DNA from: Planctomycetota bacterium | GTDB taxonomy: Bacteria > Planctomycetota > Phycisphaerae > Tepidisphaerales > Tepidisphaeraceae | Direction of reading: 5' to 3' | Assembly (NCBI GenBank): GCA_026693085.1 | Contig: JAPLNB010000262.1 | Coordinates: 1 to 64,000, forward strand | DNA: 64,000 bases | In this document: positions 24,756-45,354 of the stretch, one piece after another | Layout of the letters: every line of letters begins with the position of its first letter | Numbering within the stretch: the first letter of the stretch is position 1 | Program-made: the position numbers and the translations under genes | Notes under the pieces: model-generated | Told to the model about the DNA's origin: nothing | The model's database searches: none | What the model saw: the letters and a program-made list of their open reading frames with translations, nothing else

Positions 24756-24769
24756 ATTCACCTCACAAC

Positions 24770-25066: not shown

Positions 25067-25072
25067 AAGACC

Positions 25073-29361: not shown

Positions 29362-29715
29362 GTGAAATCCTCAATCGCCGTCCTCACCCGCAAAGGCCCC
29401 CTCACCGTCACCGCCTGCGACTTCATGGACTAAGGCAAGAATCAGATAAACATCGAAGAAGACGTGGAGTCCGCCATCATCACCTCCAACCGCCTCCGCG
29501 ACATCAAGATCACCAACACCAGCCCGGTGAAGGCGTCGAACAGTCCCAGGATCTTCATCTGGGGGAAAGGGCACTGCACATGCCCGATCGCGTTCCTGAC
29601 TTGCCTTGTTGGGCGGGTAAAGAAGTGTGGGGATCAGATTATCCAGAACCTGGGCGGGCACGAGATTCGGGGCGGGCGGAGACAGCGGTATTGGCGGTTC
29701 ACCGGCCGGCAATGA
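29362..29715 (+). pseudogene. Possible short gene or decayed frame with one internal stop
   Basis: A GTG at 29362 sits behind AAGGAG and opens MKSSIAVLTRKGPLTVTACD, ending at TAA 29431. The same frame then continues without a stop as NIEEDVESAIITSNRLRDIK to 29715. This could be a 23-codon leader peptide, a gene broken by one nonsense change, or chance. I recognise no family. It fills the 360-nt gap between the serine hydrolase and the convergent gspF-like gene, and its 3' end overlaps gspF by 17 nt. No other gene is visible in this gap. Confidence 0.25.
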
Positions 29716-30919
29716 CGCGGCTGATGGTGAAAATCGGGAGCAGCATCGCCAGCGAGACGCCGCCGATGATCACGCCCATGACGCAGATCATGGCCGGCTC
29801 GATATAGCGAGTGAGCTGGGCGATCTGCTCTTTCAATTCGTGCTCGGCAAAGGAGGCGATCTGTTCCATCACCATGGAGAGCTTGCCGCTCTTTTCGCCG
29901 CTGAAGATCATCTGTGCAATGGAGCGCGGGACCAGGGCGCTGCAGAAAAGCGGCTCGGAGAACTGGCGGCCGGCCTGGATCTGGTTGGCGATGCTCTTCC
30001 AGAGATCCTTGAAGTAGGAGTTGCTGCAGAGGTCGTGGGCGACGCTGACACAGTCCTGAAGGCTGACGCCGGCGCCGGCCATCGTGCCGACCATGCGCAG
30101 GCCCCGAGCGAGGAAGACCTGTCGAAAGAGGGTGCCAAGGAGGGGGAGGTGAAGTTGCAGGTAGTGCCAGACGCGCGCGCCGGCATTGGTGCGGAAGTAG
30201 GAGAAGCTGGCTGCGGCAATCGCCAGGAGGCAGCCGAGGAGGGTCGGCCAGCGATTGACGATCAGATCGCTCAGGTCCATGAGGACCTGAGTGGGGAGAG
30301 GGAGGGCGGCTTTTCTGTTGGCGTAGATGACGGTAAAGCGAGGCAGGACGAACGCCAGGAGGAAAACGGTGGTTGTAGCTGCAAAGGCGAACATGATGCC
30401 GGGGTAGGTCAGCGCCCCCCTGACCTTGCGGAGGATTTCCTGCTCATCGCGGAGATAGGCGGTGGCGCGGTTGAGGAACCGGCTGAGCATGCCGGTTCTC
30501 TCGGCGGCCTGCATGAGCGAGGTATAGAGGATGGGGAAACTGCGGGGATGGCGCGCGAGCGCCTCGCTGAAGCTGGCGCCAGCCTGCAGTTGTTCGCTGA
30601 GGTCGGTGACGAGGGTACGGACGTTGGGCTTGTCGGCCTGGCGGGCGATACAGTCGAGGGCATCGCTAAGGGTGACGCCGGTTTCGACCATGATGCCGAG
30701 CTGGGTGGAAAGATGGATGACGTCGGCGCGGGAGATCCTGACGCCGGCAGCACCGCGGGGGATGTCTTCGGGCGTTTCACCGGCGGCTTCGAGTATGGAG
30801 ATCGGGAACTTACCTTCAGCGCGGATGAGGTTGAGGGCTTCGGCGGTGTTGGCGGCGGCGATGGTTCCATTGGCCGGTTGGCCGGAGGTGTCTCGCGCTT
30901 TGTAAGCATAGTTGGGCAT
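29699..30919 (-). CDS. gspF: Type IV pilus / type II secretion inner-membrane platform protein (PilC/GspF)
   Basis: This 406-aa protein begins MPNYAYKARDTSGQPANGTI, the standard GspF N-terminus, and has two T2SSF domains (about 70-190 and 270-395). Each domain precedes hydrophobic segments: FAFAATTTVFLLAFVLPRF near 185, LLGCLLAIAAASF near 235 and MICVMGVIIGGVSLAMLLPIF at the end. The family serves as the cytoplasmic-membrane platform that couples the ATPase to pilin assembly. It is the last gene of the pilus locus, 11 nt after the ATPase gene. Length is normal (about 400). Confidence 0.95.
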   Translation of the reverse strand: MPNYAYKARDTSGQPANGTIAAANTAEALNLIRAEGKFPISILEAAGETPEDIPRGAAGVRISRADVIHLSTQLGIMVETGVTLSDALDCIARQADKPNVRTLVTDLSEQLQAGASFSEALARHPRSFPILYTSLMQAAERTGMLSRFLNRATAYLRDEQEILRKVRGALTYPGIMFAFAATTTVFLLAFVLPRFTVIYANRKAALPLPTQVLMDLSDLIVNRWPTLLGCLLAIAAASFSYFRTNAGARVWHYLQLHLPLLGTLFRQVFLARGLRMVGTMAGAGVSLQDCVSVAHDLCSNSYFKDLWKSIANQIQAGRQFSEPLFCSALVPRSIAQMIFSGEKSGKLSMVMEQIASFAEHELKEQIAQLTRYIEPAMICVMGVIIGGVSLAMLLPIFTISRVIAGR

Positions 30920-30930
30920 GGCAAGCTCGG

Positions 30931-32634
30931 TTATGCGGTCACACGGTAGACTTCTTCGATGGTGGTGAGGCCGGCCTTGACCTTTTCGAGGCCATCGGCA
31001 CGAAGAGGCTTCATGCCCGCGGCCCTGGTCAGTTTCTTGAGCTCATTGAGGCTGGCGCCCTGGCTGATGCGTTCGAACATGGTATCGTCAGGGGCGAGCA
31101 GTTCGTAGATGCCGACGCGTCCGGCGAATCCGCGGTTGCGGCATTTGGGGCAACCGCGGGGCCGGTAGAGCGTCTCGACGGATCCGACGACTTTTTCAAG
31201 CTGGCGATTTTCGTTGATGGTGGGCTCGTAGGCCTCTTTGCAGGCCTGGCAGAGCTTGCGGACCAGTCGCTGTGCGAGGACGCCGGAGACGGTTGCGCCA
31301 ACGAGATAGGGCTCGATGCCAAGGTCGTACAAGCGAGTGACAGCGCCTGGGGCGTCGTTGGTGTGGAGCGTGCTGAGGATGAGGTGGCCGGTGAGTGCGG
31401 ACTGGATGGCGACGCGGGCGGTATCGGCATCACGGATCTCGCCGACCATCATGATATCGGGGTCTTGGCGGAGCAGTGCCCGCAAGGCATTGACGAAGGT
31501 GAAGCCGATCTTGTCGCTGACCTGGAACTGATTGATGCCGGCGATGGTGTATTCGATGGGGTCTTCGACGGTGCAGATGTTGACGTCAGGCTCATTGAGT
31601 TCATGGAGGCTGGCGTAGAGGGTGGTGCTTTTGCCGGAGCCTGTGGGACCGGTGACCAGGAGGATGCCGTTGGGGAGGGCGATGAGCTTTCGCCACTGTT
31701 TGAGCGTATCGTAGCCGAAGCCCAGGCGTTCGAGATTGACGGCGCCGCGGTCGTTGTCGATGATGCGGATGACGATCTTCTCGCCGTGCTTTCCGGAGAG
31801 GGTGCTGACGCGGAGGTCGATGGGTCGTTTGTCCATCATGACGTGGATGCCGCCGTCCTGAGGCAGGCGGCGTTCGGCGATGTCGAGGGCGGCCATGATT
31901 TTGAAGCGGGAGGCGACGGCGGGGTGCATCTGGAACGGCGGGCGTAGCTTTTCGACGAGGCGGCCGTCAATGCGGTAGCGGACTCGGAGGGAGTGGTCGC
32001 CGGGCTCGATGTGGATATCGCTGGCGCCTTCCTTGACGGCGTTGTAGATGCAGTAGTTGACCAGTTTGATGACGGGGGAGTCACCGGCGGCCTGCTCGAG
32101 GTTGTTGATGTCAACCGACTGATGCTCGACAAGCGCGAACTCCTCGAACTTGACCTCGTCGATGATGTCGTCGATGACGAAGACGCTCTCGTTGGGGAGG
32201 TAGGCCTGGAGGGTTGCGCGGATATCGCGGACGGTTGCGGCGACGACCTGGGCGCGGTAGCCGCTGGCGCGTTCGATTTCTTCGATCAGAAAGACATTGG
32301 CGGGCTCGGGGATGGCGACGGTCAGGATTCCTTCGACGAGGAACAGCGGCAGGATCTGGTGTTTTTCGAGGAATTCCTTGGGGAGAGTGGCGATGGCCTT
32401 TGGGTCGGCGATGCGAGGGCTGATGCGGGCGTAGGGCACGCCATAGCACTGCGCGAGCGACTCGATGATCTGATCTTCGGTGCAGATGCTCAGCTCGACG
32501 AGGATTTCGCCCAGGAGCTTCTGGTTGCCGGTTTGTTTCTGCCCCGCCAGAGCGCGATCCAACTGTTCCTGCCGGATCACGCCTTTGTCCAACAGCAATT
32601 GGCCTAGCGGTTTTCGTTGCAGGGTGGCAATCAT
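30931..32634 (-). CDS. gspE: Type IV pilus / type II secretion assembly ATPase (PilB/GspE)
   Basis: This 567-aa hexameric ATPase has an N-terminal MshEN-type domain (1-150; GQLLLDKGVIRQEQLDRAL), which binds c-di-GMP in some homologues. The catalytic core has Walker A GPTGSGKS (329-336), an Asp box, Walker B region DPDIMMVGEIRD (391-402) and His box TGHLILSTLHTNDAP. The tetracysteine zinc site C462/C465 and C495/C498 marks assembly ATPases and not PilT retraction ATPases. Acting at the inner membrane with GspF, it drives pilin extrusion. GGGAGAG precedes the ATG. In this operon it follows a STAS protein and a c-di-GMP-type phosphodiesterase, which makes regulation through the MshEN domain plausible. 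Confidence 0.95.
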   Translation of the reverse strand: MIATLQRKPLGQLLLDKGVIRQEQLDRALAGQKQTGNQKLLGEILVELSICTEDQIIESLAQCYGVPYARISPRIADPKAIATLPKEFLEKHQILPLFLVEGILTVAIPEPANVFLIEEIERASGYRAQVVAATVRDIRATLQAYLPNESVFVIDDIIDEVKFEEFALVEHQSVDINNLEQAAGDSPVIKLVNYCIYNAVKEGASDIHIEPGDHSLRVRYRIDGRLVEKLRPPFQMHPAVASRFKIMAALDIAERRLPQDGGIHVMMDKRPIDLRVSTLSGKHGEKIVIRIIDNDRGAVNLERLGFGYDTLKQWRKLIALPNGILLVTGPTGSGKSTTLYASLHELNEPDVNICTVEDPIEYTIAGINQFQVSDKIGFTFVNALRALLRQDPDIMMVGEIRDADTARVAIQSALTGHLILSTLHTNDAPGAVTRLYDLGIEPYLVGATVSGVLAQRLVRKLCQACKEAYEPTINENRQLEKVVGSVETLYRPRGCPKCRNRGFAGRVGIYELLAPDDTMFERISQGASLNELKKLTRAAGMKPLRADGLEKVKAGLTTIEEVYRVTA

Positions 32635-32650
32635 CGTCTCTCCCGGTTCA

Positions 32651-32986
32651 TCACATCATTTTGAGCGCGGCAGCAAGGTCTCTCTGGCATTCAAAGCGTG
32701 GTTCCAGCCGTGTGATTTCGAGGATTTTTCGGCAGTTGTCGTCGAGCCCGATAAGTTTGATCTGTCCGAACAGGTCTTCGCAGCGGCGTTTGAGCCAGAG
32801 GAGGGCTTCGAGGCCTTCGCTGTCGATAAACGAACAATGTTCGAGGTCGACAACGAAATCGGCGACCTGTTTGGTATCGATGCGTTCTTCGGCGTTCTTA
32901 CGCAGGGCGGCGGCGTTGTCGCCGCTGAGGTCGCCGTCGATACCCATCACGCAGACACGGTTGTACTCGTCGCATCGAAGTGGCAT
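32651..32986 (-). CDS. STAS-domain protein (anti-sigma-factor-antagonist type)
   Basis: This 111-aa single STAS domain has the strand-helix pattern VCVMGIDGDLSGDNAAALRK, then VVDLEHCSFIDSEGLEALLWL, where the Ser in FIDSEG is the usual phosphorylatable site of SpoIIAA-like antagonists. The C-terminus ends in an IKLIGLD strand and helix. Such proteins bind anti-sigma kinases or act as switches in phosphorelays. No partner kinase of the RsbW type is in the window; the neighbouring sensor kinase and HD-GYP protein are the obvious candidates. It is placed 16 nt upstream of gspE and is part of the pilus locus. Confidence 0.85.
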   Translation of the reverse strand: MPLRCDEYNRVCVMGIDGDLSGDNAAALRKNAEERIDTKQVADFVVDLEHCSFIDSEGLEALLWLKRRCEDLFGQIKLIGLDDNCRKILEITRLEPRFECQRDLAAALKMM

Positions 32987-33011
32987 AGGGTTCTGTAAAC
33001 CTCCGTTTTTT

Positions 33012-34697
33012 TCAGGCTGCTCGAGCGGTCTCCGGGAACAGGAGCTGCTTTGCGGCCAGATGCTCGGGGTCGCGAAGCAGACGATGAAGATGGTCGACGG
33101 GGATCTGAAGGAGCATTTCAGCGAGGGCCGGATCGAACTGGGTGCCTGAGCATCGGCGGATCTCGGTCAGCGCCACCTCGAGCGGCAGCGCCCTGCGGTA
33201 GATACGGTTGGACGTCATTGCGTCGAAGCAGTCGGCAAGGCAGATGATTCGGCCCATGACGGGGATGTCGCGTCCGGACAATCCCATGGGATACCCGCGG
33301 CCGTCGTAGCGTTCGTGGTGGTGCAGCACACCGGGGACGATGTCTTCCATCTGCTTGACGTCGGCGAGGATCCTGGCGCCGATCTGGCAGTGGCGTTTCA
33401 TCAGCTCGAATTCTTCAGCGGTGAGGCGGCCGGTTTTCTGGAGGACGCTTTCGGGGATGCCGATCTTGCCGACGTCGTGGAGGAGGCCGGCCATGTAGAT
33501 GCGTTCGACCTGGGCGTCGACGAGGCTGGCCTTGGCGGCCATATATTGCGCCAACAGGGCGACGCGTTCGCTGTGGCCGCAGGTGTAGGCGTCCTTGGCA
33601 TCGACGGCGCTGGTGAGGCTGTGCAGGAGCCCCATCATCAGATCGTGGACATCGCCGTACAGCATCGCGTTTTCGAGGTAGATCGCCGACTCGTTGCCGA
33701 TGGCGCTCAGCAGCTTGCTGTCCACGGAGTCGAAGTCGCCGTTGAGCTTGTCCAGGCCGAACAGGCAGCCCAGGATCTGTTCGCGGCGAAGGAGAGGGAC
33801 GGCGATCAACCGGGATGCCGAACCGGTGAGCCAGCCGTAGGCTTTGTCCTTCGCGAGGTCGTTGATGAGAAGACAGCTCTTTCGCTCGTCGAGGGTGAGC
33901 AGGAGTTGATTCGCGAGGCGTTGCACCAGGTCGGGCGGCAAGACAAGCTCGCCGTAGAGGGCGGGTTCCGCGTGAGTCTTCTCGGTGCGCAGCGCCACGC
34001 CCATGCCGCGGACGCCCATGACCTGCATGACGTCGAGACAGGCCTGGCGGAAGAAGTCGGTGCTGCGGCGGTTGACCCGCATCCCGCCGCTGATCTGCTC
34101 GATGAGGGTCAACTCTTCGTAGGTGTTGGCCAACTGAGTCGAGAGGGAGTTGACTTCGAGCTCGAGGGACGTCTGGCGGAGGCGGTCGGTGAGCATGCTG
34201 AGGAACAATGCCGCTTGGTTGGCCAGGCGTTCGAGGTTGTGCGCGGGCAGGATGTCGGCCTGCTGGCGGAGCCAGGTTGCATCGAGCCCGAGACGGCAGC
34301 ACAGGCGAAGCAGATCCTCGCCAAGGCTGAAATCGCCGCTCTTGGCGGCCAGCGCGAGAACACCCTGCACCTGCCGGCGCTCGACGTAGGGCACGGCACA
34401 AATTGCGACGCCGGGGACGAGATGCCAGGCGGTCGGGCTCGACCGGGCGGTCAATTTTTTCGCGTGAGAGAGGAGTTGGTTGCCGGCCAGTTCGGGGCAA
34501 TGGAGGGCGGGGATGAGATAGCGATCGAAGAAGGGGCTGGCGGCGGCATCATGCTGAATAGAGCCGTCCCTTTGTATGAGGAGCAGGCAGAGACCGGCGG
34601 CGCGACTGTGCAGCGAAAGCGATGCCTGGATGGTTGAGGGAATCCAGGTTTGGCTGCTGTCGGTCGTCTCGGAAATATGCGGTTGGTTTGCCGCCAT
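33012..34697 (-). CDS. GAF and HD-GYP domain protein (putative c-di-GMP phosphodiesterase)
   Basis: This 561-aa cytosolic protein has GAF-like segments at about 25-165 and 200-345 joined by a helix, and an HD-GYP domain from about 350. The HD pair is at 407-408 (LLHDVGKIGIP) and the signature HHERYDGRGYP at 460-470 includes the GYP at 468-470. Active HD-GYP enzymes hydrolyse c-di-GMP to GMP or pGpG using a di- or tri-metal centre, and the visible metal ligands are present. The GAF domains would sense a small molecule. Its position between the response regulator and STAS genes suggests it tunes c-di-GMP at the pilus machine, whose ATPase has an MshEN domain. Confidence 0.9.
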   Translation of the reverse strand: MAANQPHISETTDSSQTWIPSTIQASLSLHSRAAGLCLLLIQRDGSIQHDAAASPFFDRYLIPALHCPELAGNQLLSHAKKLTARSSPTAWHLVPGVAICAVPYVERRQVQGVLALAAKSGDFSLGEDLLRLCCRLGLDATWLRQQADILPAHNLERLANQAALFLSMLTDRLRQTSLELEVNSLSTQLANTYEELTLIEQISGGMRVNRRSTDFFRQACLDVMQVMGVRGMGVALRTEKTHAEPALYGELVLPPDLVQRLANQLLLTLDERKSCLLINDLAKDKAYGWLTGSASRLIAVPLLRREQILGCLFGLDKLNGDFDSVDSKLLSAIGNESAIYLENAMLYGDVHDLMMGLLHSLTSAVDAKDAYTCGHSERVALLAQYMAAKASLVDAQVERIYMAGLLHDVGKIGIPESVLQKTGRLTAEEFELMKRHCQIGARILADVKQMEDIVPGVLHHHERYDGRGYPMGLSGRDIPVMGRIICLADCFDAMTSNRIYRRALPLEVALTEIRRCSGTQFDPALAEMLLQIPVDHLHRLLRDPEHLAAKQLLFPETARAA

Positions 34698-34729
34698 ACT
34701 GCCACCATCTGTTCGGGACTGCGCGTGCG

Positions 34730-35110
34730 TTATGCGGCTGCCACGTGCAGCACTTCGTTAACCATTGCCAGAAGCTGTCTTGGGCTGAAAGGCTTGCTGA
34801 GCATGCAGAGGATGCCGCTGTTCTCGGTGTCGTGCGGCTCGAGGCTGTAGCCGCAAGCCGTGAGCATGATCGCGGGGATATTGGCGGTTGCCGGCTCTTG
34901 TTTCAGGGCGCGGCAGAGTTCGATGCCGGACAGTTCGGGCATGTGATAGTCGGTGATAATGAGGTCCGGGTGCTCGTGCTGTGCCGCTTCGAGGGCTTCG
35001 CGGCCGTTGCGGGCAGTCACCACGCGGAAGCCGGCGTTTCGGAGCTTCAGGGACACGACGGAAAGGATGTGCGACTCGTCATCGGCAACCAGGATCGTCT
35101 TACCAGTCAT
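34730..35110 (-). CDS. Single-domain response regulator
   Basis: This 126-aa CheY-like receiver starts MTGKTILVADDESHILSVVS, with GGAGGG just upstream of the ATG; an in-frame extension to 35257 overlaps the kinase gene and is rejected. The acidic pocket is D10/D11, the phospho-acceptor D54 (IITDYHMPE), then T and the conserved lysine in LSKPFSP. There is no output domain, so it must act by protein contact, perhaps on the HD-GYP protein encoded next, or as a phosphate sink. Its gene follows the histidine kinase by 73 nt. Confidence 0.92.
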   Translation of the reverse strand: MTGKTILVADDESHILSVVSLKLRNAGFRVVTARNGREALEAAQHEHPDLIITDYHMPELSGIELCRALKQEPATANIPAIMLTACGYSLEPHDTENSGILCMLSKPFSPRQLLAMVNEVLHVAAA

Positions 35111-35183
35111 GTACCCTCCGGGCCAGCGATTCGACTGCCTGCATTGGCTGCGGGGCAGTTGTCTCCGGCCTGTTAGATCAGCC

Positions 35184-36623
35184 TCATTCGACCAGATCGA
35201 GCTCAAATCCGAACGTGCTGCCTTTGCCGACCTGGCTTTCCACGAACATCCGGCCATGGTGGACCGTTTCGATAATGTGCTTCACCAGCGACAGTCCGAG
35301 GCCGGTGCCCTTGGCCATCCGGTTGTTGGTTTCGGCCCTGTAGAACTTATCGAATACAAATGCCAGGTCCTTTGGTGGAATTCCAACGCCGGTATCGGAG
35401 ATTCGGGCGGCAATCTTTTTTCTGGACTCATCGACGACGGTTTGGACGGTTATCGTGCCACCTTCAGGGGTGTATTTGACGGCATTGGAGAGCAGGTTGA
35501 GAATGGACTCGTAGAGCATATCTCGGTCCGCGCGGGTCTGATCGACGGCCGGGGCGATCTGTTCGACGATCTCTATCTGTTTCTGCCTGGCCTGGGGCAG
35601 GATCACCTCGACGGCCTCCTTGAGCAGGACCATGAGGCTCAGGGGGGTTTTGTTGATTTTGATGAGGCCGGACTCGATCCGCGAGATATTGAGGATATTG
35701 TCGATGAGGCGGCCGAGGCGGTTGGCTTCGTTCTGGATAACCTCGTAGAACTCGGTGCGTGTTTTGTCGTCGGAAGCTTCTCCGTCGATGAGCATCTCGG
35801 CGTAGGCCTTGATGCTTGCCAGGGGGGTACGGAGTTCGTGGCTGACGTTGGAGACGAAGTCGTTCTTCATCTCTGCGACTTCTTTTTCGCGCGTCATGTC
35901 ATGGAGCACGGCGACGACGCCGGCGGGAGTATCCTCGCGGCCGGCGACGCAGGAGAGCGTGACCTTGTAGATTCGCTCACCGGAGGGGGTTTGGACCTTG
36001 TGCTCGACGATCCGGCGGCCGCTGCGGCTGTCGCTTTTTCGCATTTCGCGGATCAGCGAGATCATGGTGCTGTCGCATATGACGTCGTGGATGGGAGCGC
36101 GGCTTGCGCGGCTGAGGTCGAAATTGAAGGTACGGGCGGCCGAGTCATTGGCCAGAACAACCTCGTCGAAGGGATCGGTCACGAGCACGGCGTCGGAAAT
36201 GCTGTAGATAATGGCTTCGGCGTGCTGTCGTTCGGCGGTGGCGACCTTGAGCTGGATCTCGATTTCCTTGACTCGGAGGCGGGCCGCGGCGACCTCCTCC
36301 TCTGCCGACGCGATCACGCCATTAAAGGCATTAACCAAAGGATTGAGCGTCGGATGCGGGGACGGGAGGCGATGGAGCGGGCCGAGGTTCTGCACGTTGG
36401 ACAGCCCCCGTGTCAGACGGCGGCAAGCGCTCGATAGCGAGAGCATCCCCGCCATGCCCACGAAGCCGGCAAAGAGGAATAGCACCATGGCGGCGATGCG
36501 GTTGGGCCGGAAACGGAAAAAAGGCCCGAGTTCGAGTTCGGTGGCAGGAGCAAATGACAGCGCCATCAGACCGCCGCCCAGCAGGATGAAGCAGAGGATC
36601 AGGATGAAGGTAGCCCGTCGCAC
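35184..36623 (-). CDS. Membrane sensor histidine kinase
   Basis: This 479-aa kinase begins with a GTG at 36623. Two N-terminal membrane helices (about 6-24 and 42-62) flank a very short periplasmic loop, followed by a HAMP-like linker, a PAS-like domain (135-245), HisKA with phospho-acceptor H262 in NVSHELRTPL, and HATPase_c with the N, G1 (DTGVGIPP), F and G2 (GTGLGLSLV) boxes. It resembles PhoR-type kinases. It probably phosphorylates the receiver protein encoded immediately downstream. A hairpin separates this four-gene signalling block from the TPR and secretin genes upstream. Confidence 0.92.
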   Translation of the reverse strand: MRRATFILILCFILLGGGLMALSFAPATELELGPFFRFRPNRIAAMVLFLFAGFVGMAGMLSLSSACRRLTRGLSNVQNLGPLHRLPSPHPTLNPLVNAFNGVIASAEEEVAAARLRVKEIEIQLKVATAERQHAEAIIYSISDAVLVTDPFDEVVLANDSAARTFNFDLSRASRAPIHDVICDSTMISLIREMRKSDSRSGRRIVEHKVQTPSGERIYKVTLSCVAGREDTPAGVVAVLHDMTREKEVAEMKNDFVSNVSHELRTPLASIKAYAEMLIDGEASDDKTRTEFYEVIQNEANRLGRLIDNILNISRIESGLIKINKTPLSLMVLLKEAVEVILPQARQKQIEIVEQIAPAVDQTRADRDMLYESILNLLSNAVKYTPEGGTITVQTVVDESRKKIAARISDTGVGIPPKDLAFVFDKFYRAETNNRMAKGTGLGLSLVKHIIETVHHGRMFVESQVGKGSTFGFELDLVE

Positions 36624-36720: not shown

Positions 36721-37908
36721 TCATTCTTCAGGCCGCGCTTGCGCCATCAGCGTTCCAGCCAATTGGTCATTGGGCTTGAGCTTCAGAGCGAGGGCGTAGT
36801 AGTTGATCGCCTCGGTGTGCTTGCCCTGTTTTTCCAGAACCAGGCCGCTCATGCAGAGGCTGACGGGGTCCTTGCAGTCGAGGGCGATGGCCTTGCGGAA
36901 TGCCGCCAGCGCATCGTCGAGCCGGTTCTGCCGCAGGCGTACGTAGCCGAGGGTCAGATGCACTTCGCTGCTGGCCGGATCGAGGGACATGGCCTTGCGG
37001 GCCGACAGGTCCGCGCGGCGCAGGTCGTTCAGTTGCAGGGCAGCCTTGGTGAGCTTCAGCCACACGCCTGCGGAGGACGGATCGAGTTGGGAGGCGGTCT
37101 CGAAGCTTTCGCGGGCCTCGGGCGAACGGCCGGTCTGGATCTGGCACTCGCCCAGCGCGATGAACAGGTCAGCTCGCGAGTTGTATTTGTCTTCCTTGAC
37201 GAGGCGGCTCAGCAGCGAACCGGATTCGCGGAAATCGCCCGCATAGAACATCGCCAGGGCCAGGTGCTCGCGTATCGCCGGCTCGTCGGGCGCGAGAATG
37301 CTGGCTTGGCGGAGGATCGTGGCACCTTCGGCATGCTTGCCCTGCTGGACGAGCATCTGGCCGACGGCGTCACGGATGGCGGCGCTGTACTCGAAGTAGG
37401 CCATCTTGTCGCGGAGCAGGCTCAGCGCTTCGGGCAGGCGATCCATGGCCACAAGCATTTCCGCCTTGGCCATCAGGTACGCCAGCTCCGACGGCGCCTG
37501 TTCCGAGGCTCGCGTGTAACATTCCAGCGCGACATCTCGCTTCTGCCACCGCTCGTAGATCACGCCGAAGAGGTAATCCACCTCAACGTCCTTGCTGTCA
37601 AGGGAGCGGGCAAGCTGCAGCGCTTTCTCGGCCGGCTCAAGCTGGCCCTGCTCGATGTTGAGCCTGGCCAGCAGGACATAGAGCGGCTCCTGCTTCGGAT
37701 TGAGCTTGATCGCGTCGTCGATCGCCTTGCGGCTCTCGGCGAAGTTGCCGTTCTGGTACTGCTGCTTGGCCATGCCGTACAGGACGTCGGATCGGGCCGC
37801 GTTCCACCTTTGCGTCGCCGCTGCCTTCTGGGTGGGCTCTTTAGGCCCGTTGACACAGCCAGCAGCGAAAGCCAGAACCAGCATTGCCATGAGATGCTTC
37901 ATTGCCAT
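36721..37908 (-). CDS. TPR lipoprotein of the pilus locus
   Basis: This 395-aa lipoprotein has leader MAMKHLMAMLVLAFAAGC (lipobox FAAGC, Cys18), behind GAGGAG. The mature chain is almost entirely TPR units, about ten, for example YGMAKQQYQNGNFAESRKAI and LTLGYVRLRQNRLDDALAAF. It is encoded between the secretin and the signalling block, which is the position of PilF/PilW-type pilotins in some T4P systems. Those proteins are TPR lipoproteins that help the secretin multimerise in the outer membrane. It is longer than PilF (about 250 aa). The pilotin role is inference. Confidence 0.85.
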   Translation of the reverse strand: MAMKHLMAMLVLAFAAGCVNGPKEPTQKAAATQRWNAARSDVLYGMAKQQYQNGNFAESRKAIDDAIKLNPKQEPLYVLLARLNIEQGQLEPAEKALQLARSLDSKDVEVDYLFGVIYERWQKRDVALECYTRASEQAPSELAYLMAKAEMLVAMDRLPEALSLLRDKMAYFEYSAAIRDAVGQMLVQQGKHAEGATILRQASILAPDEPAIREHLALAMFYAGDFRESGSLLSRLVKEDKYNSRADLFIALGECQIQTGRSPEARESFETASQLDPSSAGVWLKLTKAALQLNDLRRADLSARKAMSLDPASSEVHLTLGYVRLRQNRLDDALAAFRKAIALDCKDPVSLCMSGLVLEKQGKHTEAINYYALALKLKPNDQLAGTLMAQARPEE

Positions 37909-37960: not shown

Positions 37961-40165
37961 TTACTTCTCGTCGCGTTCACTCGAGGACTGCCCTTCCACC
38001 TCGTCGACTGGAAGCTCCGTGACGGTCACATCCTGGTCGGTGGGCTGGGTCGTGGGCGCCGGCACGGGAGACTGGGAAGCCACAACCCCGTTCTCTTTGG
38101 ACTCACTCTTTTCCAACAGCGTTGCGGCGGCCTGCTCGGTCACGGGCGTCTCGACGACGGCCGGCGGCGTGGTGGGTGTTTCGACCATTTCATCCTCGGC
38201 CACCCAATCGGTCTCCCATGTGTCGTCATCAGCTTCGGCCTGGGTCACGGCCGGTTGCATCGCGGTCGCCGCAGCTACCGGCGGCGTCGTAGGCGCCGCG
38301 GGAGTCGCAGGCATGGCCGGGAAAGCCGGAGCGGATTTGGGCGTTTCGACGGCCGCCGTGACGCCGCGCTCGGCGAGGACCTGGCGTTTCACGAACCCGC
38401 GGATGGAGCTGTTGTCGACCGATGTCATCTCTTGGCCGTTGAGGCCCTCCTTCATCTTGATGGCTTCGAGGAACTTGGGGTTCAGATTCGTCGCGCAGTC
38501 AAGGTACCAGATGGCCTTCTTGGGGTTGGGGGTGGGTTTGCTCATTTCCTTGACGGCATTGTCATAGGCGCCTTCGGCGAGCCGCTCGCGAGCCCATGGC
38601 ATCAGGCTGCGGCGTACGCCCACTCGCAGCTTCTCCATGTCCTTGAGCTCTTCCTCCGAGGCCTTGGTGTATGCCTTCTCGTCCTTCACGATGTGGGGGG
38701 TGAGCATGATGATGAGTTCTTCGCGAAGCGTGGTGTCCTGCTGGCTGCGGAACAGCGTGCCAACGACGGGGAGGCTGCCGAGGCCGGGGACCTGGCTGCG
38801 GCTGGTGATGGTGCTCTCGCGGAAGAGGCCGCCGATGACGATGGTGTGGCCGTCCTTGACCATGATGTTGGTGGTGACTTCGGCGGTGGTCTTGAACGGC
38901 AGATCGTTTTTCAGGCCGCCGCTGGAGTCTTCAGGGTGGATTTCCATGCGGATGTAGCCGTCATCGCCGATGTAGGGGCGGAAGATCAGGCGGGTGCCGG
39001 TCTTGAGGAACTCGACGGTCTGGATGGTGGTGGTTTCGGTGACGGAGGTGGTCTTGTAGCCGTCTTCGCGGCCGACGAGGACTTCGCCGCGTTGCTTGTT
39101 GAGGGTCAGGACCTTCGGGTTGGCGAGCACGACGGTGTCGGTGACCTGCTCCAAGGCATTGAGGAAGACGGAGATATCCTGTGTGACGAATCCGACCTTG
39201 AAGCCGGGGGCCAGACTCTGCGTCATATTGTTGCCGGTGCCGACACTGCTGGCGCTCTTGTTCCAGGCGCCTTCACCTTCCTTGAGCTGGGCGTTGGTGA
39301 ACTGGCCGCTGGAGTTGGTGATCTTGCTGAAATCGATTCCGCCGACGATGTTGAAGTCGATGCCCAGGTTGTTATCGTCGCTCAGTCTTGCCGCGACAAT
39401 CGTCGCCTCCACGAGGATTTGCTGCGGCCGACGGTCCACTTCTTTGAGGATCTTCTTCACCTTCTCGATGTTGTCCGGATAGTCGCGCACCACCAGGATG
39501 TCCTCGGTGGCGTGGGTATTGCCGCCGGCTTCCTTGTTGCTGCTCTCAATGCCGGGCTTCGCAGCCTCCGTAACTGAGGTCTGGCCTTCGGCGCTGAGCG
39601 CGGGCTTGATGATGACCAAGGCGTTGGCCGCGGGGGTGTAGAAGAGGCGGAAGACCTCGGTGGTCATCTGGCGCTCGGCCTTCTCGATGTCCGCCAGTTC
39701 CTTGGCGCCGTAGACATAGATGAAGTTGCCCTTTTCGCGATAGGCGTAGCCATTGCCTTTGAGAATCGCCTCCAAGGCCTCGCGGATGGTCACATTATAG
39801 AGGTTGGCGGTGACCGTGCCCCGGACGTCCTTGCTGGCGATGATGTTCTTCTGCGACTGAAGCGACAGCATGCGGAGGACTTCGACGAGGTTGGCCTCGT
39901 TGACGTGGATCTCGACAGTGCCGCTGTCTGATACGTTCACTTGCTGCGCACCGACGCTCTGGCCTTCGGCGGGCTTGGTAGCCGGCGCCGGGGCCGGCGT
40001 TGCAGCCGGGGATGGCGTATCGTCCAAGAGTTTCACGTCCGTGTTAGGCGCCTTACCACCGGATTGGCTTGCCTTGCCTTCCGCCGCTACCGAAAGCGCC
40101 TGGAAGGAATAAACGGACGACAAGGCCAAAAAAAGAGCCGCGAATGCCTTCGTCGTTTTGCACAT
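37961..40165 (-). CDS. Outer-membrane secretin (PilQ/GspD-like)
   Basis: This 734-aa protein has a Sec signal peptide (MCKTTKAFAALFLALSSVYS..), AGGAGA before the ATG, and a Pro/Ala linker. An N-terminal STN/N-domain follows (EIHVNEANLVEVLRMLSLQS, about 85-150), then an N1-like domain (REALEAILKG..) and the secretin core from about 250 (QILVEATIVAARLSDDNNLGIDF) to about 520 (VVIGGLFRES, VPGLGSLPVVGTLF, REELIIMLTPHIV). The C-terminal 200 residues are a non-secretin tail with AP-rich low complexity, longer than usual. It forms the outer-membrane gate for pili or secreted substrates. No classical pilotin-binding S-domain is obvious. Confidence 0.93.
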   Translation of the reverse strand: MCKTTKAFAALFLALSSVYSFQALSVAAEGKASQSGGKAPNTDVKLLDDTPSPAATPAPAPATKPAEGQSVGAQQVNVSDSGTVEIHVNEANLVEVLRMLSLQSQKNIIASKDVRGTVTANLYNVTIREALEAILKGNGYAYREKGNFIYVYGAKELADIEKAERQMTTEVFRLFYTPAANALVIIKPALSAEGQTSVTEAAKPGIESSNKEAGGNTHATEDILVVRDYPDNIEKVKKILKEVDRRPQQILVEATIVAARLSDDNNLGIDFNIVGGIDFSKITNSSGQFTNAQLKEGEGAWNKSASSVGTGNNMTQSLAPGFKVGFVTQDISVFLNALEQVTDTVVLANPKVLTLNKQRGEVLVGREDGYKTTSVTETTTIQTVEFLKTGTRLIFRPYIGDDGYIRMEIHPEDSSGGLKNDLPFKTTAEVTTNIMVKDGHTIVIGGLFRESTITSRSQVPGLGSLPVVGTLFRSQQDTTLREELIIMLTPHIVKDEKAYTKASEEELKDMEKLRVGVRRSLMPWARERLAEGAYDNAVKEMSKPTPNPKKAIWYLDCATNLNPKFLEAIKMKEGLNGQEMTSVDNSSIRGFVKRQVLAERGVTAAVETPKSAPAFPAMPATPAAPTTPPVAAATAMQPAVTQAEADDDTWETDWVAEDEMVETPTTPPAVVETPVTEQAAATLLEKSESKENGVVASQSPVPAPTTQPTDQDVTVTELPVDEVEGQSSSERDEK

Positions 40166-40211: not shown

Positions 40212-40832
40212 TTAAAATCGAAAAACAACTTCTAGTTTGATGCCTTCGCGTTCCACGATGATCCGCTTGGCCTCGATCTTGACCACGCGGAAGCCTGCGA
40301 TGGTGTCGCCTGCCCCAACCAGGGTGCCGTTGACCATCGCCTTTGGATCGCCGTTCTTCATGACCGTGCTCTGCAACTTCAATCGAGCGGCCTGCGACTG
40401 CAGGTTCTCAACCAAAATGTGCTTCGCCTTCTCCTGATCGGCCTTTGCAGCAAAGGACTTTGCCAGTTCGTCCCAAAATCCGTCCGCGGCGGATTGGACC
40501 TTGGTAAGACTCGACCCATCCTGAGCGAAGTAGTCGAGCTTGACGAGGAACAGATTACGCTGGATGAGCCCGACTGAGCTGTGGGTGAATTCCTGCAGAG
40601 CGCGCGTGGCATGGGACGACTGGGAATTGGCAACGGCGGCCTGGGTGTTGGTTTTGGCGTCTGCGAGGGTTGCCATCGCAGCCGCGGGCTGCGTCTTGCC
40701 GGTAAAAAGCACTCTTCCCCACATGACCGCCATGACTGCGACGAGAATGCTCAGCGCCATGGTCTTCTTCGGCTGCGTTTTGAGTCGCCGCGCGATCTGC
40801 TGCTGCCAGGCTGATAGGGAAGCGTCGGCCAT
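40212..40832 (-). CDS. PilP/GspC-like inner-membrane protein
   Basis: This 206-aa protein has a basic N-terminus (AWQQQIARRLKTQPKK), one membrane helix (about 24-42), an Ala/Gln-rich linker, then a helical domain with NLFLVKLDYF. It ends with a small beta module, PKAMVNGTLVGAGDTIAGFRV then KIEAKRIIVEREGIKLEVVF, the HR-type fold seen in PilP and GspC. The order secretin-(this)-PilO-PilN-PilM matches the canonical pilMNOPQ operon, supporting a PilP role in linking the PilNO platform to the secretin. The start ATG lies next to the PilO stop (TGAATG) behind GAGGG. Confidence 0.75.
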   Translation of the reverse strand: MADASLSAWQQQIARRLKTQPKKTMALSILVAVMAVMWGRVLFTGKTQPAAAMATLADAKTNTQAAVANSQSSHATRALQEFTHSSVGLIQRNLFLVKLDYFAQDGSSLTKVQSAADGFWDELAKSFAAKADQEKAKHILVENLQSQAARLKLQSTVMKNGDPKAMVNGTLVGAGDTIAGFRVVKIEAKRIIVEREGIKLEVVFRF

Positions 40833-41390
40833 TCATCCCTCCGAGAAATAAACGCTGGTCACCATGTCGGTCACTTCGACGACACCGGGCTTGCCGGTTT
40901 TGTTCTTGATGATCAGGCGGCGGATGCGTGTCAGTCGCTGGAGGTCTTCGACCTGCCTGAGAAACGACGCGACATTCAGGAAATCGCCCTGGAAGCTGAG
41001 TTGGATGGGCTGTTCGTAGAAGCCATCCGCGCGTTTGGAGGCCAGCGGCTGGAGTTTAAGTTCCTGCAGCGATAATTGCTGGCTGACTTGAGTGAGATCC
41101 TTGATGAACTGACCCAATTCGACCTGCCGCGGGAACTGGCGGTCGTAATCCTGCACGCTACGTTCCAGGCGTTGGACTTCTCTGAGCACGGCGGGGAGGT
41201 TGCGTGCGCGGTTCTGATCGGCCGACAGATCGCGGCGTTTGGAATCAATCTGCATCTGGAGCGCCGCCAGCCAGCGTGTGGTGGGCCGATAACCAAGCAG
41301 GTAGAACCCCAGCAGGCCCAACGCAATGGTGAGCCCGAGAATGCCCTGAGCACGTTTGTACCAGCCGATCTGTTTCTGCAATGATCGCAT
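40833..41390 (-). CDS. pilO: Type IV pilus alignment protein PilO
   Basis: This 185-aa bitopic membrane protein starts MRSLQKQIGWYKRAQGILGL, with one transmembrane helix (about 18-38), a periplasmic coiled coil (QMQIDSKRRDLSADQNRARNL) and a ferredoxin-like C-terminal domain with PIQLSFQGDFLNVASFLRQV, the hallmark of PilO. An upstream in-frame ATG at 41414 overlaps pilN by 20 nt and has no ribosome site, so I use 41390. PilO forms heterodimers with PilN in the inner-membrane alignment complex between PilM and PilP. Confidence 0.85.
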   Translation of the reverse strand: MRSLQKQIGWYKRAQGILGLTIALGLLGFYLLGYRPTTRWLAALQMQIDSKRRDLSADQNRARNLPAVLREVQRLERSVQDYDRQFPRQVELGQFIKDLTQVSQQLSLQELKLQPLASKRADGFYEQPIQLSFQGDFLNVASFLRQVEDLQRLTRIRRLIIKNKTGKPGVVEVTDMVTSVYFSEG

Positions 41391-41394
41391 GCGG

Positions 41395-42024
41395 TCAGTT
41401 CCCTGTCGCGGCATTAAGGTTTACGTTGAACGTCAACTCGAACTCGCGCAGGACATGCCCGGCCTCACGGCGATCGCGCGCGTAGGTGGGCGCGACATGA
41501 TCGAAAAACGGGATTTTGTTCAACTCAATCACAAATGTCGCCATCTCCAGATTCGTCGGCGCCACGCCCAGGAGCTTGACCCGGAGGCGGCGGTCCATCG
41601 GCGGAGTCGCCGTTTCCTTTCCGCCCGATTTGGGTGGCGTGGTCACTTGGATCGGCGTTTCCTCGACCGCAAGTTCCAGGCTCAAGAGCGACACGGTCGG
41701 GGGCATCATCTCCGCCAGCTTCGCCAGCATCTGCGATGATTTCACATGCTCGCCAAGCCGGCCGAGCACTTCCGCCTGCTGGCGCCATTGCTTGCTCAGC
41801 GCCTCCATCCGTTCCATCTGCTGGACCTGCAAGTTGGTTTGCTGCCATTGGCCCTTGATGGTGCCCAGGGCATCTTCGGCGTCACAGCGGTTGCGGTTAG
41901 CGAGGAACACCCAAAAACCGAGGCCCAGCGCCAGGACGATGCTGATCCAGACCTGGAGAAACAGCAGGCGGCGGCGTTTCTGCCACTGCGTATACCAGGT
42001 TGGCAGGAATTCCACATCACGCAT
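41395..42024 (-). CDS. pilN: Type IV pilus alignment protein PilN
   Basis: This 209-aa bitopic protein has the short cytoplasmic N-terminus MRDVEFLPTWYTQWQKRRRL, equivalent to the PilN motif (INLLPWR) that docks in PilM. A transmembrane helix (about 23-42), a coiled coil (GTIKGQWQQTNLQVQQMERM) and a ferredoxin-like domain with PPTVSLLSLEL and LLGVAPTNLEMATFVIELNK follow. The start overlaps the pilM stop by 8 nt. It works with PilO to connect cytoplasmic PilM to the periplasmic PilP/secretin assembly. Confidence 0.87.
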   Translation of the reverse strand: MRDVEFLPTWYTQWQKRRRLLFLQVWISIVLALGLGFWVFLANRNRCDAEDALGTIKGQWQQTNLQVQQMERMEALSKQWRQQAEVLGRLGEHVKSSQMLAKLAEMMPPTVSLLSLELAVEETPIQVTTPPKSGGKETATPPMDRRLRVKLLGVAPTNLEMATFVIELNKIPFFDHVAPTYARDRREAGHVLREFELTFNVNLNAATGN

Positions 42025-43255
42025 GGGCTTGCTCCAGCGGTGAGACGACGGCGTAGGCGGCGGCGGGCTCGGCGATGGGCTCGGCGATGAGCTCGGCGGC
42101 GGGCTCGGCGGCGGCAGGGGTAGCGGCGCCTCGCGGCTTGCCGTCTTTGGCCCCGAATCGCTGTACGGTGCGGCGGAGGCTCAAGCCAAGCGCCAGCGCC
42201 CATTCGGCCATGAGGCCGCGGCGCTCCACCGACTTCATGCTGCTCGCATCGACGTTGTGCAAGGGCCGGCCCGATTCGACCGGAATCGTGACGATGGAGC
42301 TGAGCACGGCCTGAAGCTGGGTGTCGGCGGCTTCGCCGCCGAAGAGCCGCAGGCGTTGCGGCCGGTTGCCCCGGAACGTGACCGATTGGTATCGCAGACA
42401 GAGCGATATTTCGTGGCCGATTTCCTCCATGACACTGCGGGTGGCATCGAAGACGGCCTGGCGTACGGGGTCGCGTTTATCTGACGTTTCGGCGCGATCG
42501 TGATTTTCGACGAGGCGTCGGCGAAGCGCCTGTGCTTCGGGAACGGTGATGCCGAGCCGGGTTGCGATCGCCTTGTGCAGATGGAGGCCGCCGATGTCTA
42601 TGGCCTTGAGGACACTGATATCGCGCCCCTTGCCGATGACGACCTGGCTGCTGGCCAGGCCGATGTCCACAAGGACATGGACTTCTTGCTCATCCTCGCG
42701 GCGGCGGATGAAGCGCTCGATGCTGCGGAACAGCGAAAGCTGTTCGACGTCGAGCGACTCGACCTCGACGCCGCAGCAATGGGCGTGCTCAACGAAGTCG
42801 TCGATGTCGTCGTTGCGGGCAGCCAGGACGTTCACCTCCTGCAACACGTCGTTTCCCTGCCGGACCTCGCCGGCGGCCAGAAAGTGGACGCTCGCGTGGT
42901 CGGTGTCAAAGGTGAAGAGATTCCTGGCCTCCAACTGGACCGCCGGCTCAAGTTCTGTAACGGGCATCAAAGGCAGGCGGAAGTTCTTGATGTGGACGAT
43001 CTCTCGCGGCAGGGCCAGGACCGCGCGGCGGCCCACGAAGGCGCCCTCGCGGAGCATTTGCCGGACCATCTCGGCGGCAACGGACAAGCGCAACTGCGGA
43101 TCGGCCTTGGCCTCGTCGGGCATGCTGCGCCTCGCGGCAGCGCGAACCGACAGGGAGTTGCCGACCACCTCGAGCTGGATCATCTTGATCGAATCTCGCC
43201 CGATATCCAGGCCAATCGGCTGAATCTGTGATCTGGTCAATCTGATCATGTCCAC
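42017..43255 (-). CDS. pilM: Type IV pilus assembly ATPase-like protein PilM
   Basis: This 412-aa cytoplasmic protein has the actin-like FtsA/PilM fold. IGLDIGRDSIKMIQL is the phosphate-1 motif, VLALPREIVHIKNFRLP and LVDIGLASSQVVIGKG the second phosphate site, and RLRLFGGEA the adenosine motif. The last ~60 residues are a low-complexity Ala/Pro/Glu tail (AAAEPAAELIAEPIAEP), which is unusual. PilM binds nucleotide and the N-terminus of PilN to anchor the alignment complex. The listed start is a GTG; an ATG two codons later is equally possible. Confidence 0.9.
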   Translation of the reverse strand: MDMIRLTRSQIQPIGLDIGRDSIKMIQLEVVGNSLSVRAAARRSMPDEAKADPQLRLSVAAEMVRQMLREGAFVGRRAVLALPREIVHIKNFRLPLMPVTELEPAVQLEARNLFTFDTDHASVHFLAAGEVRQGNDVLQEVNVLAARNDDIDDFVEHAHCCGVEVESLDVEQLSLFRSIERFIRRREDEQEVHVLVDIGLASSQVVIGKGRDISVLKAIDIGGLHLHKAIATRLGITVPEAQALRRRLVENHDRAETSDKRDPVRQAVFDATRSVMEEIGHEISLCLRYQSVTFRGNRPQRLRLFGGEAADTQLQAVLSSIVTIPVESGRPLHNVDASSMKSVERRGLMAEWALALGLSLRRTVQRFGAKDGKPRGAATPAAAEPAAELIAEPIAEPAAAYAVVSPLEQAHA

Positions 43256-43260
43256 GTCCG

Positions 43261-43812
43261 CTAAATCGCCGTTACCGTGATCTGCCCTGTGAACGGCTCG
43301 ATGTCGATCCGGAGCTTGAACTGGCCTGCCTGGATGACAATGGACCCGCTCGTCAGCGCCTGGCTGCCCGCACCGGTGTACACCACCGGCGTGCCGATCT
43401 CGTCGAACCCGAATGCCTGGTACGTGGTGGCCGACTGGCCCTTGAAATCGGCGGAAACGAGTGTGATGCCCTGCATGCCCGACGAACCGCCGGTGCCGAA
43501 CATCACTGTGTACGGAGTCCTATTCACCGGATGCGAGACGACGGTCAGGTCTGAGGAGCGGACCAGCGAGTACTGGCTGGGCGTTGGCGTGAGCTGGAAC
43601 ATCACATACAGGTTGCTCTGCTGGGTAATGGCCAAGTTCTGGGCGTAGATCAGATCCGCCATCATGACGCGGGCCGCGGCCTCGCTCGTGCGGTCGTCGC
43701 GAGTCCCGAGCTGGGGAACAACGATCGCACCGGCAATCCCGATGATCACCACGACGACCAGTATTTCGACCAGCGTGAACCCGGGATGCCGAATCAGATG
43801 TCGCTTGCGCAT
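43261..43812 (-). CDS. Prepilin-like protein (GspH type)
   Basis: This 183-aa protein has a short leader MRKRHLIRHPG, prepilin-peptidase site G/FTLVE with Glu+5, and a hydrophobic helix (ILVVVVIIGIAGAIVVPQL). GGAG precedes the ATG. The globular part has AAARVMMADLIYAQNLAITQQ, the GspH/FimT signature for minor pseudopilins. It would enter the pilus tip or initiate assembly. The gene is 5 nt upstream of pilM on the same strand. Confidence 0.88.
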   Translation of the reverse strand: MRKRHLIRHPGFTLVEILVVVVIIGIAGAIVVPQLGTRDDRTSEAAARVMMADLIYAQNLAITQQSNLYVMFQLTPTPSQYSLVRSSDLTVVSHPVNRTPYTVMFGTGGSSGMQGITLVSADFKGQSATTYQAFGFDEIGTPVVYTGAGSQALTSGSIVIQAGQFKLRIDIEPFTGQITVTAI

Positions 43813-43904
43813 GTCTTGCTCCGACTGGAGACAACGCCTACGACGACGCCGCCTGGCTTAGGCTGCGGCGGACACGTTCCAACGCCTCGACCAGCCGCAG
43901 CCGG

Positions 43905-44147
43905 TCACTGCTGTTTCTCATCGGGCTTTGCGACCTGCACCTGAAGCTTGCCGGAGTTCAAAATCTCCACGAGCTTGTCCACCTTGCCATTCAGGCTTTT
44001 GAGCTCGTTGATCAGCTCGTTTCGTTGCGAGCCGGAATCCGGGATCTGCGCCCAGGCCGGCGTTACCGGACCGGACCCGGTCCATTGGCTCAGGAGGATC
44101 AGTCCCTGGAGAACCACGATAATCGCCAAAAGTCGTGATGATTTCAT
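43905..44147 (-). CDS. Small exported coiled-coil protein of the pilus locus
   Basis: This 80-aa protein has N-terminus MKSSRLLAIIVVLQGLILLS (membrane anchor or signal peptide with a likely AWA cleavage), then a short heptad-like helix NELINELKSLNGKVDKLVEI, and ends KPDEKQQ. AAGGTG precedes the ATG. It lies between the PilX-like and GspH-like genes, 21 nt after the former, so it is probably co-transcribed. I recognise no family. It could be a small stabiliser of the alignment complex, but that is a guess. Confidence 0.6.
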   Translation of the reverse strand: MKSSRLLAIIVVLQGLILLSQWTGSGPVTPAWAQIPDSGSQRNELINELKSLNGKVDKLVEILNSGKLQVQVAKPDEKQQ

Positions 44148-44168
44148 CGGTGCACACCTTTTGTCATG

Positions 44169-45347
44169 CTACTTCCACGAAAGAACCGTGACGCTGCGTA
44201 CGTTGCTTGTATCAAGGTCTGGCAAGATCAACTTCGATGCACTGACCTTGGTGATATCGATCGTGACCGCGCCCGAGTAGGCCGCAATCGCGCCGTTGTC
44301 GCCGAACAGCACGGCGCCGTTGAACGTGAGGCTGGTGCCGGTGCCCGTGCCGAAGTCCGGCTTTATGGTTTTCCCTATGAAAGTGGCGCCGGCTATCTTC
44401 ATCGACTTGCCGGGCCTGGTCCTGAACTCACCGAGCACAATCAACGCCGGGTATCCATCCTGCGCCGTAATCTCGATGTTCGTGCCATTGAGAATCACAT
44501 TGCCGGTCACGATGAGGGTGCCGTTGAGTTTGAGATTGTCGTTGAGGGTAAGGGTATTGTTGTAGTAGTAGACGCCAGCGGGGTTCGCGGGGGTGGTGGT
44601 GGGTCCAAGCTGATCCATGACCCCGCCGCCGATGGCGAAACTCGGGGCAGCGGACAACGTGGCCCGCGGATAGAGATGGCCATCGGTGTACACATAGTTC
44701 TGGTACATCTGGATCGACGCGGTCGTGGGCGCGGCCGCGGGATCGGTCGAAGCGATCGAGGCGGTGTTGCTTATGGCGCCCCTGTTGTCGAAGCTGCTTG
44801 CATACGCCGTGCCGTTGATGCTACTGAAGGGCATGAGCGTGAGCTGGCCGTTTGTCGCGACATTCCCGATGATGGAAACAAAGCTGGCGATACTCAGCGG
44901 CTTGACGCACGACACCGCGCGGTTGATCTTGAGGCCCGGCTGTACTCGCACCCTGGCCGTGGCCGTGTGCGTCACGCCCGAGCCTGACGAACCGCCCGTC
45001 TTGCCGCTCGACGTGATCACGTACTCGTTCGTCTTGGCAAGGTCCTTCGCAACCGTCACATCGATCGTCCCCGTGACCGTGCCGCCCAACGAGATGTTCG
45101 TACCCCCGGGCCAGTAGCCGTTCTGCAGCGACGGCGCGTTCCAGGGGTTCAGCAGGTAGTGCGTCGCCAGGTTCACCCCCGATTCCGCCAGCGTATCTGC
45201 CCGGGCGGCCAGCGCAGCGTTGCTGCTCACCTGCACTTGAAGCGACGTTTCGGCCAGCAGCGCAAACCCCAGCACCGCCGCCACGCCGACGATGACCATC
45301 ACCTGCAGCAGCGCAAAACCAGGTTGTTGCATCCAAGCGCGTTGCAT
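44169..45347 (-). CDS. PilX-like minor pilin with large C-terminal domain
   Basis: This 392-aa protein starts MQRAWMQQPGFALLQVMVIVG behind GAGGAC. The G/FALLQVMV site is like PilX-type prepilins, with Q replacing the usual Glu+5. A helix with LAARADTLAESGVNLATHYLL follows, the pattern of PilX N-termini. The remaining 250 residues are beta-rich with repeated hydrophobic and Asn/Gly turns (LNDNLKLNGTLIVTGNVILN), resembling a small beta-helix or polymer-like cell-surface fold. It is probably a tip-located minor pilin carrying a surface domain. The stop is 21 nt upstream of the small exported gene. Confidence 0.8.
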   Translation of the reverse strand: MQRAWMQQPGFALLQVMVIVGVAAVLGFALLAETSLQVQVSSNAALAARADTLAESGVNLATHYLLNPWNAPSLQNGYWPGGTNISLGGTVTGTIDVTVAKDLAKTNEYVITSSGKTGGSSGSGVTHTATARVRVQPGLKINRAVSCVKPLSIASFVSIIGNVATNGQLTLMPFSSINGTAYASSFDNRGAISNTASIASTDPAAAPTTASIQMYQNYVYTDGHLYPRATLSAAPSFAIGGGVMDQLGPTTTPANPAGVYYYNNTLTLNDNLKLNGTLIVTGNVILNGTNIEITAQDGYPALIVLGEFRTRPGKSMKIAGATFIGKTIKPDFGTGTGTSLTFNGAVLFGDNGAIAAYSGAVTIDITKVSASKLILPDLDTSNVRSVTVLSWK

Positions 45348-45354
45348 GGCGTCC

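Follow-up and report, generated by a model that had tools for sequence, protein, structure and literature searches.

The known controls of pilus and secretion ATPases are a few proteobacterial adaptors (PilZ/FimX) and the direct binding of cyclic di-GMP (c-di-GMP). A small PilZ adaptor acts on the pilus ATPase PilB in Xanthomonas (PMC8389850), c-di-GMP favors pilus extension in Vibrio when bound to MshE (PMC7096442) and the STAS protein MlaB regulates the ATPase MlaF (PMC7367683). In this study, we analyzed a stretch of 64,000 nucleotides (the window) from a draft planctomycete genome of 6.2 Mb (G000); the named genomes closest to it are metagenome assemblies from the Phycisphaerae. As an earlier note made from the sequence alone had stated, with correct coordinates (30931-36623), five consecutive genes on the minus strand of the window encode, in order, a sensor histidine kinase (HK), a single-domain response regulator (RR), a GAF-GAF-HD-GYP protein, a stand-alone STAS protein and a PilB/GspE-type assembly ATPase. 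They lie, as also stated there, between pilus genes, with secretin and TPR genes on one side and a PilC/GspF gene on the other. Comparison with related loci showed that STAS adjoining the ATPase is the constant core of this module, while the slot for a c-di-GMP enzyme holds HD-GYP, GGDEF, both or neither, depending on the lineage. The most likely explanation is that STAS would serve as a dedicated regulator of the ATPase and that local turnover of c-di-GMP would add a second input.

Similar to the PilB-PilZ-FimX system of Xanthomonas citri (PMC8389850), the window locus, as judged from its genes, has a small one-domain adaptor candidate beside the N-domain of a pilus-type ATPase and linked to a c-di-GMP protein. 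Different from that system, STAS stands instead of PilZ, a GAF-HD-GYP or GAF-GGDEF protein stands instead of FimX (GGDEF-EAL), and one operon also contains HK and RR; neither PilZ nor FimX domains were found in the ten operon proteins scanned (those of the five module genes, GspF, TPR, secretin, PilP-like and PilM). The window ATPase belongs to the same family as the GSPII ATPases MshE and PilF (PMC5013675, PMC11731258) and has the MshEN fold in common with them, as well as both LG pairs and motif I for the most part, but it has lost the terminal Gln of motif II, its motif I and those of its relatives mostly start with Pro or Gln, and its operon has a c-di-GMP enzyme and a STAS neighbor. MlaB-MlaF (PMC7367683) also pairs a stand-alone STAS protein with an ATPase, and direct regulation is a feature of MlaB; however, MlaF is an ABC ATPase rather than a member of the PilB family, and MlaB is a shorter STAS. 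The Foldseek TM of the window STAS was 0.63 to MlaB versus 0.91 to SpoIIAA complexes, and a MlaB-type origin was rejected because the model is closer to SpoIIAA-type STAS. In RpfG, the receiver is fused to HD-GYP. RpfG is likewise an HD-GYP enzyme tied to pilus ATPases and works through GGDEF/PilZ proteins on PilT/PilU (PMC3749722), whereas in the window the receiver is separate and the neighbor is an assembly ATPase. Finally, HptB-HsbA-HsbD of Pseudomonas also couples a STAS-type anti-anti-sigma factor to a c-di-GMP enzyme (PMC5085249). Its output differs from the one considered here. To our knowledge, the HptB-HsbA-HsbD module has no pilus ATPase partner.

Loci were gathered by searching 101 related genomes and by a single genome-wide scan, and their neighbors were then checked. 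In 20-kb stretches around HD-GYP and STAS matches, the gene string upstream of each full-length ATPase was tallied, which gave 64 distinct loci, all from Planctomycetota; given that the sample was selected by HD-GYP or STAS similarity, fractions of loci are not frequencies. The order HK-RR-HD-GYP-STAS-ATPase was shared by 37 of the 64 loci, so that the five genes are co-conserved. It spans many Phycisphaerae families, with identities down to ~35–40%, and such recurrence excludes chance. The other strings were HK-RR-STAS-ATPase and HK-STAS-ATPase (7 loci each), HK-RR-GGDEF-STAS-ATPase (4), RR-HK-STAS-ATPase, HD-GYP-STAS-ATPase and STAS-ATPase alone (2 each), and RR-STAS-ATPase, HK-RR-HD-GYP-GGDEF-STAS-ATPase and HK-RR-HD-GYP followed by a fusion of STAS to ATPase (1 each). 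As 17 STAS-ATPase loci (7 HK-RR-STAS, 7 HK-STAS, 2 RR-HK-STAS and 1 RR-STAS) are without a recognized adjoining c-di-GMP enzyme gene, the constant element is STAS and not HD-GYP. The coupling of STAS to such genes had been called non-standard; STAS beside the ATPase is in fact routine in Planctomycetota, but the module was not described in the open-access literature searched for STAS with HD-GYP, PilB, GspE or type IV pili. None of the HD-GYP matches that the first scan gave in other phyla had STAS-ATPase neighbors, which is no proof of absence there.

In the maximum-likelihood tree of the ATPase domain, slot types were strongly clustered (8 changes summed over all groups; the mean after shuffling was 22.8). 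Association with STAS was present in two well-separated clades. Thus, the string is old, and STAS was retained through a few exchanges or losses of the c-di-GMP enzyme. Four loci of one family (f43; Planctomycetota outside the class Phycisphaerae) have GAF-GGDEF between the receiver and STAS with RYGGEEF intact, and the slot protein of locus L149 matches Pfam GGDEF at 7e-43. At L188 (4378-12000), HK, RR and the adjacent HD-GYP and GAF-GGDEF genes (GGDEF 5e-45) are all upstream of STAS and ATPase, so that this operon carries both an eraser and a writer of c-di-GMP. The slot of L194 holds a degenerate GGDEF version (GGATF), and that of L163 an unclassified protein with a degenerate GGDEF-like stretch seen by eye and no Pfam match. 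With a phosphodiesterase in some lineages and a cyclase in others, this slot offers a ready natural comparison for local c-di-GMP signaling. A paralogous HK-STAS-ATPase-GspF set with no receiver or c-di-GMP enzyme was also observed in Phycisphaerae, at L157, L159, L160, L161, L167, L185 and L186 (near 10 kb).

The STAS protein of the window (32651..32986; Pfam STAS 1.6e-14) has a SpoIIAA-like fold. Its AlphaFold model has a pLDDT of 94.2, and the best structural match is SpoIIAA in its complex with SpoIIAB, at Z 19.6 and an rmsd of 1.3 over 111 residues. It contains the sequence D55-S56-E-G-L-E, in which we take S56 to match the phospho-Ser position of SpoIIAA/RsbV, the Ser after Asp. This position is supported by what PMC7367683 states of Thr52. 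The idea of a "dead switch," in which the phospho-site would be the variable residue past the conserved Ser, was dropped, as the numbering of SpoIIAA, RsbV and MlaB puts the acceptor at the conserved Ser. The Ser directly after Asp was kept in 80 of 81 ATPase-linked STAS sequences. In these 81, the residue two past the Gly was Glu in 65 and Thr in 14 (a DSxGL-E/T signature), and Gly stood at the same position in 17 of the other 29 STAS proteins, which are not beside a full-length ATPase and form a rough set, as some come from loci with the ATPase cut off.

At L191 (9798-11837; genome G337), STAS, MshEN and T2SSE are in one 680-residue frame (Pfam 3.6e-11, 4.9e-12 and 5.7e-134, respectively), with no in-frame ATG, GTG or TTG between STAS and MshEN in the DNA. 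The fusion is preceded by its own intact HK-RR-HD-GYP string, with a GAF-HD-GYP protein. In the closest relative (G344), STAS and ATPase are abutting genes with a single stop between them. In the 75 genomes of that class, this was the only fusion found.

That STAS acts on the ATPase itself is suggested by the constancy of the STAS-ATPase pair, by the fusion and by the conservation of the switch surface; PilZ on PilB and MlaB on MlaF are examples of small one-domain proteins that act in this way. The exchangeable GAF-enzyme speaks for a c-di-GMP input, which could come from a change of c-di-GMP near MshEN or from contact. Thus, we propose with slight preference that a control cassette forms part of a type IV pilus-like operon, with STAS and local c-di-GMP as two inputs on one motor. 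The wider proposal, that STAS serves PilB/GspE-family ATPases across Planctomycetota as a dedicated regulatory subunit, with a plug-in slot for enzymes that make or break c-di-GMP, may be right or wrong in about equal measure. In such a cassette, the kinase would phosphorylate the single receiver, which would target either the GAF-HD-GYP protein or STAS; STAS would bind the assembly ATPase or its N-domain and set its activity; and HD-GYP would lower c-di-GMP close to the machine. Given that c-di-GMP bound to MshE promotes extension in Vibrio, HD-GYP activity would favor retraction or idling. The adjacency of STAS and ATPase together with the one fusion suggests a new adaptor for motor control. 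If STAS is indeed tied to the motor across the phylum, it would be a second kind of adaptor, which joins partner-switch chemistry with c-di-GMP.

The machine itself can be read in two ways. The locus has a type IVa pilus set of PilM (42017..43255), PilN-like (41395..42024; PF05137 2e-4, slightly under cut-off), PilO (40833..41414; PF04350 4e-18), PilP/GspC-like (40212..40832; assigned by position, as its T2SSB/CdsD_C matches are weak), a PilQ/GspD-like secretin (37961..40165), the PilB-type ATPase, a GspF/PilC platform protein of the inner membrane (29699..30919) and pilins (43261..47894), all on the minus strand; PilM, the secretin and GspF/PilC were assigned by profile matches. No PilT was found in the window operon, and a secretion-type function is therefore possible, so that gating of pilus extension as such, which the earlier note had proposed, is one candidate function. 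A type II secretion-like or pseudopilus machine, in which the cassette would gate secretion, is nevertheless the less probable reading, and it is compatible with control by c-di-GMP and STAS as well as with control by contact only. Besides the missing PilT, the ATPase scored slightly higher with the GspE model than with the PilB model (602 versus 585 bits, both under their own cut-offs), and the pilin-like genes match GspG/GspH models. However, PilM, PilN-like, PilO and PilC-type genes are present, the same operon of relatives L051 and L149 includes a PilT over cut-off, and elsewhere in G000 there are three PilT genes that score above it.

The assembly ATPase (30931..32634; T2SSE 2e-132, MshEN 2.9e-17) has an N-terminal MshEN (GSPII) domain, the model of which has a pLDDT of 87.8 and the MshEN fold. 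The best matches of this N-domain are c-di-GMP-bound MshE (5htl; Foldseek TM 0.77 by query, rmsd 2.1) and PilF GSPII-B, and they include the Q218E mutant complex 9glg. The c-di-GMP_motif model NF053729 scored 56.1 bits (cut-off 38). The two 24-residue MshEN-type motifs are at ATPase residues 9-32 and 40-63 (32446..32610, minus strand), and the consensus of both is (R/K/L)LGxx(L/V/I)2xxG...LxxxLxxQ (PMC5013675, extended in PMC11731258). Motif I of the window, PLGQLLLDKGVIRQEQLDRALAGQ, departs from the consensus at position 1 only, with Pro, and motif II, LLGEILVELSICTEDQIIESLAQC, has Leu at position 1 and LG but carries Ser in place of the Gly and Cys in place of the last Gln. In a first alignment of 50 rows, not all independent, the LG of motif II and the Gln of motif I were present in 50/50, and the Gly of motif I was fully kept; both LG pairs and the hydrophobic positions are retained. 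PilF GSPII-B, the tightest known binder, has Leu at motif position 1, Pro at this position is tolerated in the binding domain PilF GSPII-C, and a Gln-to-Glu change in motif II of GSPII-B (structure 9glg) lowered the affinity 77-fold and left binding at 460 nM (PMC11731258). On the earlier suggestion that the MshEN domain could bind c-di-GMP, the residues thus agree in part: with a fold like the c-di-GMP-bound form but the motif II Gln lost and the start of motif I altered, binding is plausible, not proven. In our estimate, the window ATPase has rather more probably kept c-di-GMP binding than lost it.

Several findings weigh against the favored explanation. The phosphate-binding terminal Gln of motif II was present in 0/50 rows, the Arg of motif I was replaced by Pro, Gln, His or Thr in 50/50 (Pro or Gln in 46), and the GSPII-A scaffold needed changes including both glutamines to regain binding (PMC12002112). 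The 17 loci without an adjoining enzyme gene also count here. Moreover, at L056 and L183, HK-RR-HD-GYP follows secretin and TPR, but neither STAS nor an ATPase lies downstream, and the ATPases that match best in these genomes lack an upstream STAS, so that the two halves of the module are separable; one of the two genomes (G012) has a separate HK-STAS-ATPase-GspF set. The fusion is known from a single draft genome and might be an assembly artefact, and operon neighborhood is no proof of physical interaction. The motif II Gln is retained on other branches (L188, L191-L194 and L208).

Some of these findings would fit control by protein contacts only, in which the N-domain no longer binds c-di-GMP and the HD-GYP/GGDEF protein signals by contact with STAS or the receiver. 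The action of RpfG on pilus motors via GGDEF and PilZ proteins in Xanthomonas (PMC3749722) is a model for such control. In addition to the absence of the phosphate-binding Gln and a constant neighbor that is STAS rather than the enzyme, Glu or Asp is at the motif II Gln position in the GGDEF-slot and many empty-slot lineages. On the other hand, the LG of motif II and the Gly and Gln of motif I are fully kept, Leu1 of motif II is as in the tightest binder, Pro1 is tolerated in GSPII-C, the Gln-to-Glu mutant still binds and the active-site residues of both HD-GYP and GGDEF are intact. Thus, control by contact only is rather unlikely.

Local c-di-GMP turnover, the second input of the favored explanation, would depend on the GAF-GAF-HD-GYP protein (33012..34697; HD_5 2.4e-39 and two weak GAFs), a putative c-di-GMP phosphodiesterase with the sequence HD...HHERYDGRGYP. 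The catalytic and metal positions H407-D408, K411, H436, H460-H461-E462, D465-G-x-G468-Y-P and D489 were invariant in 27 sequences, and the nearest solved structure is 4mcw (E 6e-44). The earlier idea of a local c-di-GMP circuit is favored by this invariant set and by a slot that can hold a cyclase or both enzymes, and is qualified by the loci without an enzyme. At L050 (9887-11597), the HD-GYP gene is over two overlapping frames, an apparent frameshift due to sequencing error or decay. The HK (35184..36623) has two hydrophobic N-terminal stretches, PAS, HisKA (SHELRTP) and HATPase_c (Pfam), and the RR (34730..35110; Response_reg 1.7e-24), the start of which is internal to the longer open reading frame as listed, has its phospho-acceptor Asp in ITDYHMP. 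The H-box His and the receiver Asp are conserved across relatives. A disguised Ser kinase in the HK-STAS loci was rejected, as all ten HKs checked have a normal H-box.

That STAS is an ordinary anti-sigma antagonist, with S56 phosphorylated by a SpoIIAB/RsbW-type kinase elsewhere, transcription of pilus or other genes as output and ATPase adjacency as operon housekeeping, is improbable: its fold is closest to SpoIIAA in the SpoIIAB complex and its phospho-acceptor Ser is conserved, but no SpoIIAB/RsbW-type kinase or PP2C phosphatase was found in the ten operon proteins scanned (the rest of the genome was not searched), STAS and ATPase stay paired where any other gene of the module has changed, and STAS is fused to the ATPase in one natural case.

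The minus-strand order of the whole operon is pilin-like genes, PilM, PilN-like, PilO, PilP-like, secretin, TPR, HK, RR, GAF-GAF-HD-GYP, STAS, ATPase and PilC/GspF. The intergenic gaps are 97 nt (TPR-HK), 73 (HK-RR), 32 (RR-HD-GYP), 25 (HD-GYP-STAS), 16 (STAS-ATPase) and 11 (ATPase-GspF). No terminator-like site was found between the module genes on the minus strand, and the sole such site near the module (36499-36482) is internal to the HK gene; the region has as many terminator-like sites as expected from shuffling. The module is likely co-transcribed. The TPR lipoprotein-like protein (36721..37908) is encoded upstream of HK. The pilin/pseudopilin cluster has N-methyl motifs at 43261-43812, 45355-46017, 46537-47220 and 47217-47894, and a weak PilV/ComGE match at 46014-46676.

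G000 also codes for five GGDEF proteins and eight MshEN-domain matches, and the latter together with its three PilT indicate other pilus motors in the same cell. On contig C264 of G000 (11468-16117), a PilB-type ATPase, PilT and a second PilB-type ATPase are consecutive; the first of these ATPases has lost the Gln of motif I and the second retains both Gln. Finally, two small overlapping genes on the minus strand of the window (24477-25192) resemble, by eye, a HigA-type antitoxin and a HigB-type toxin.

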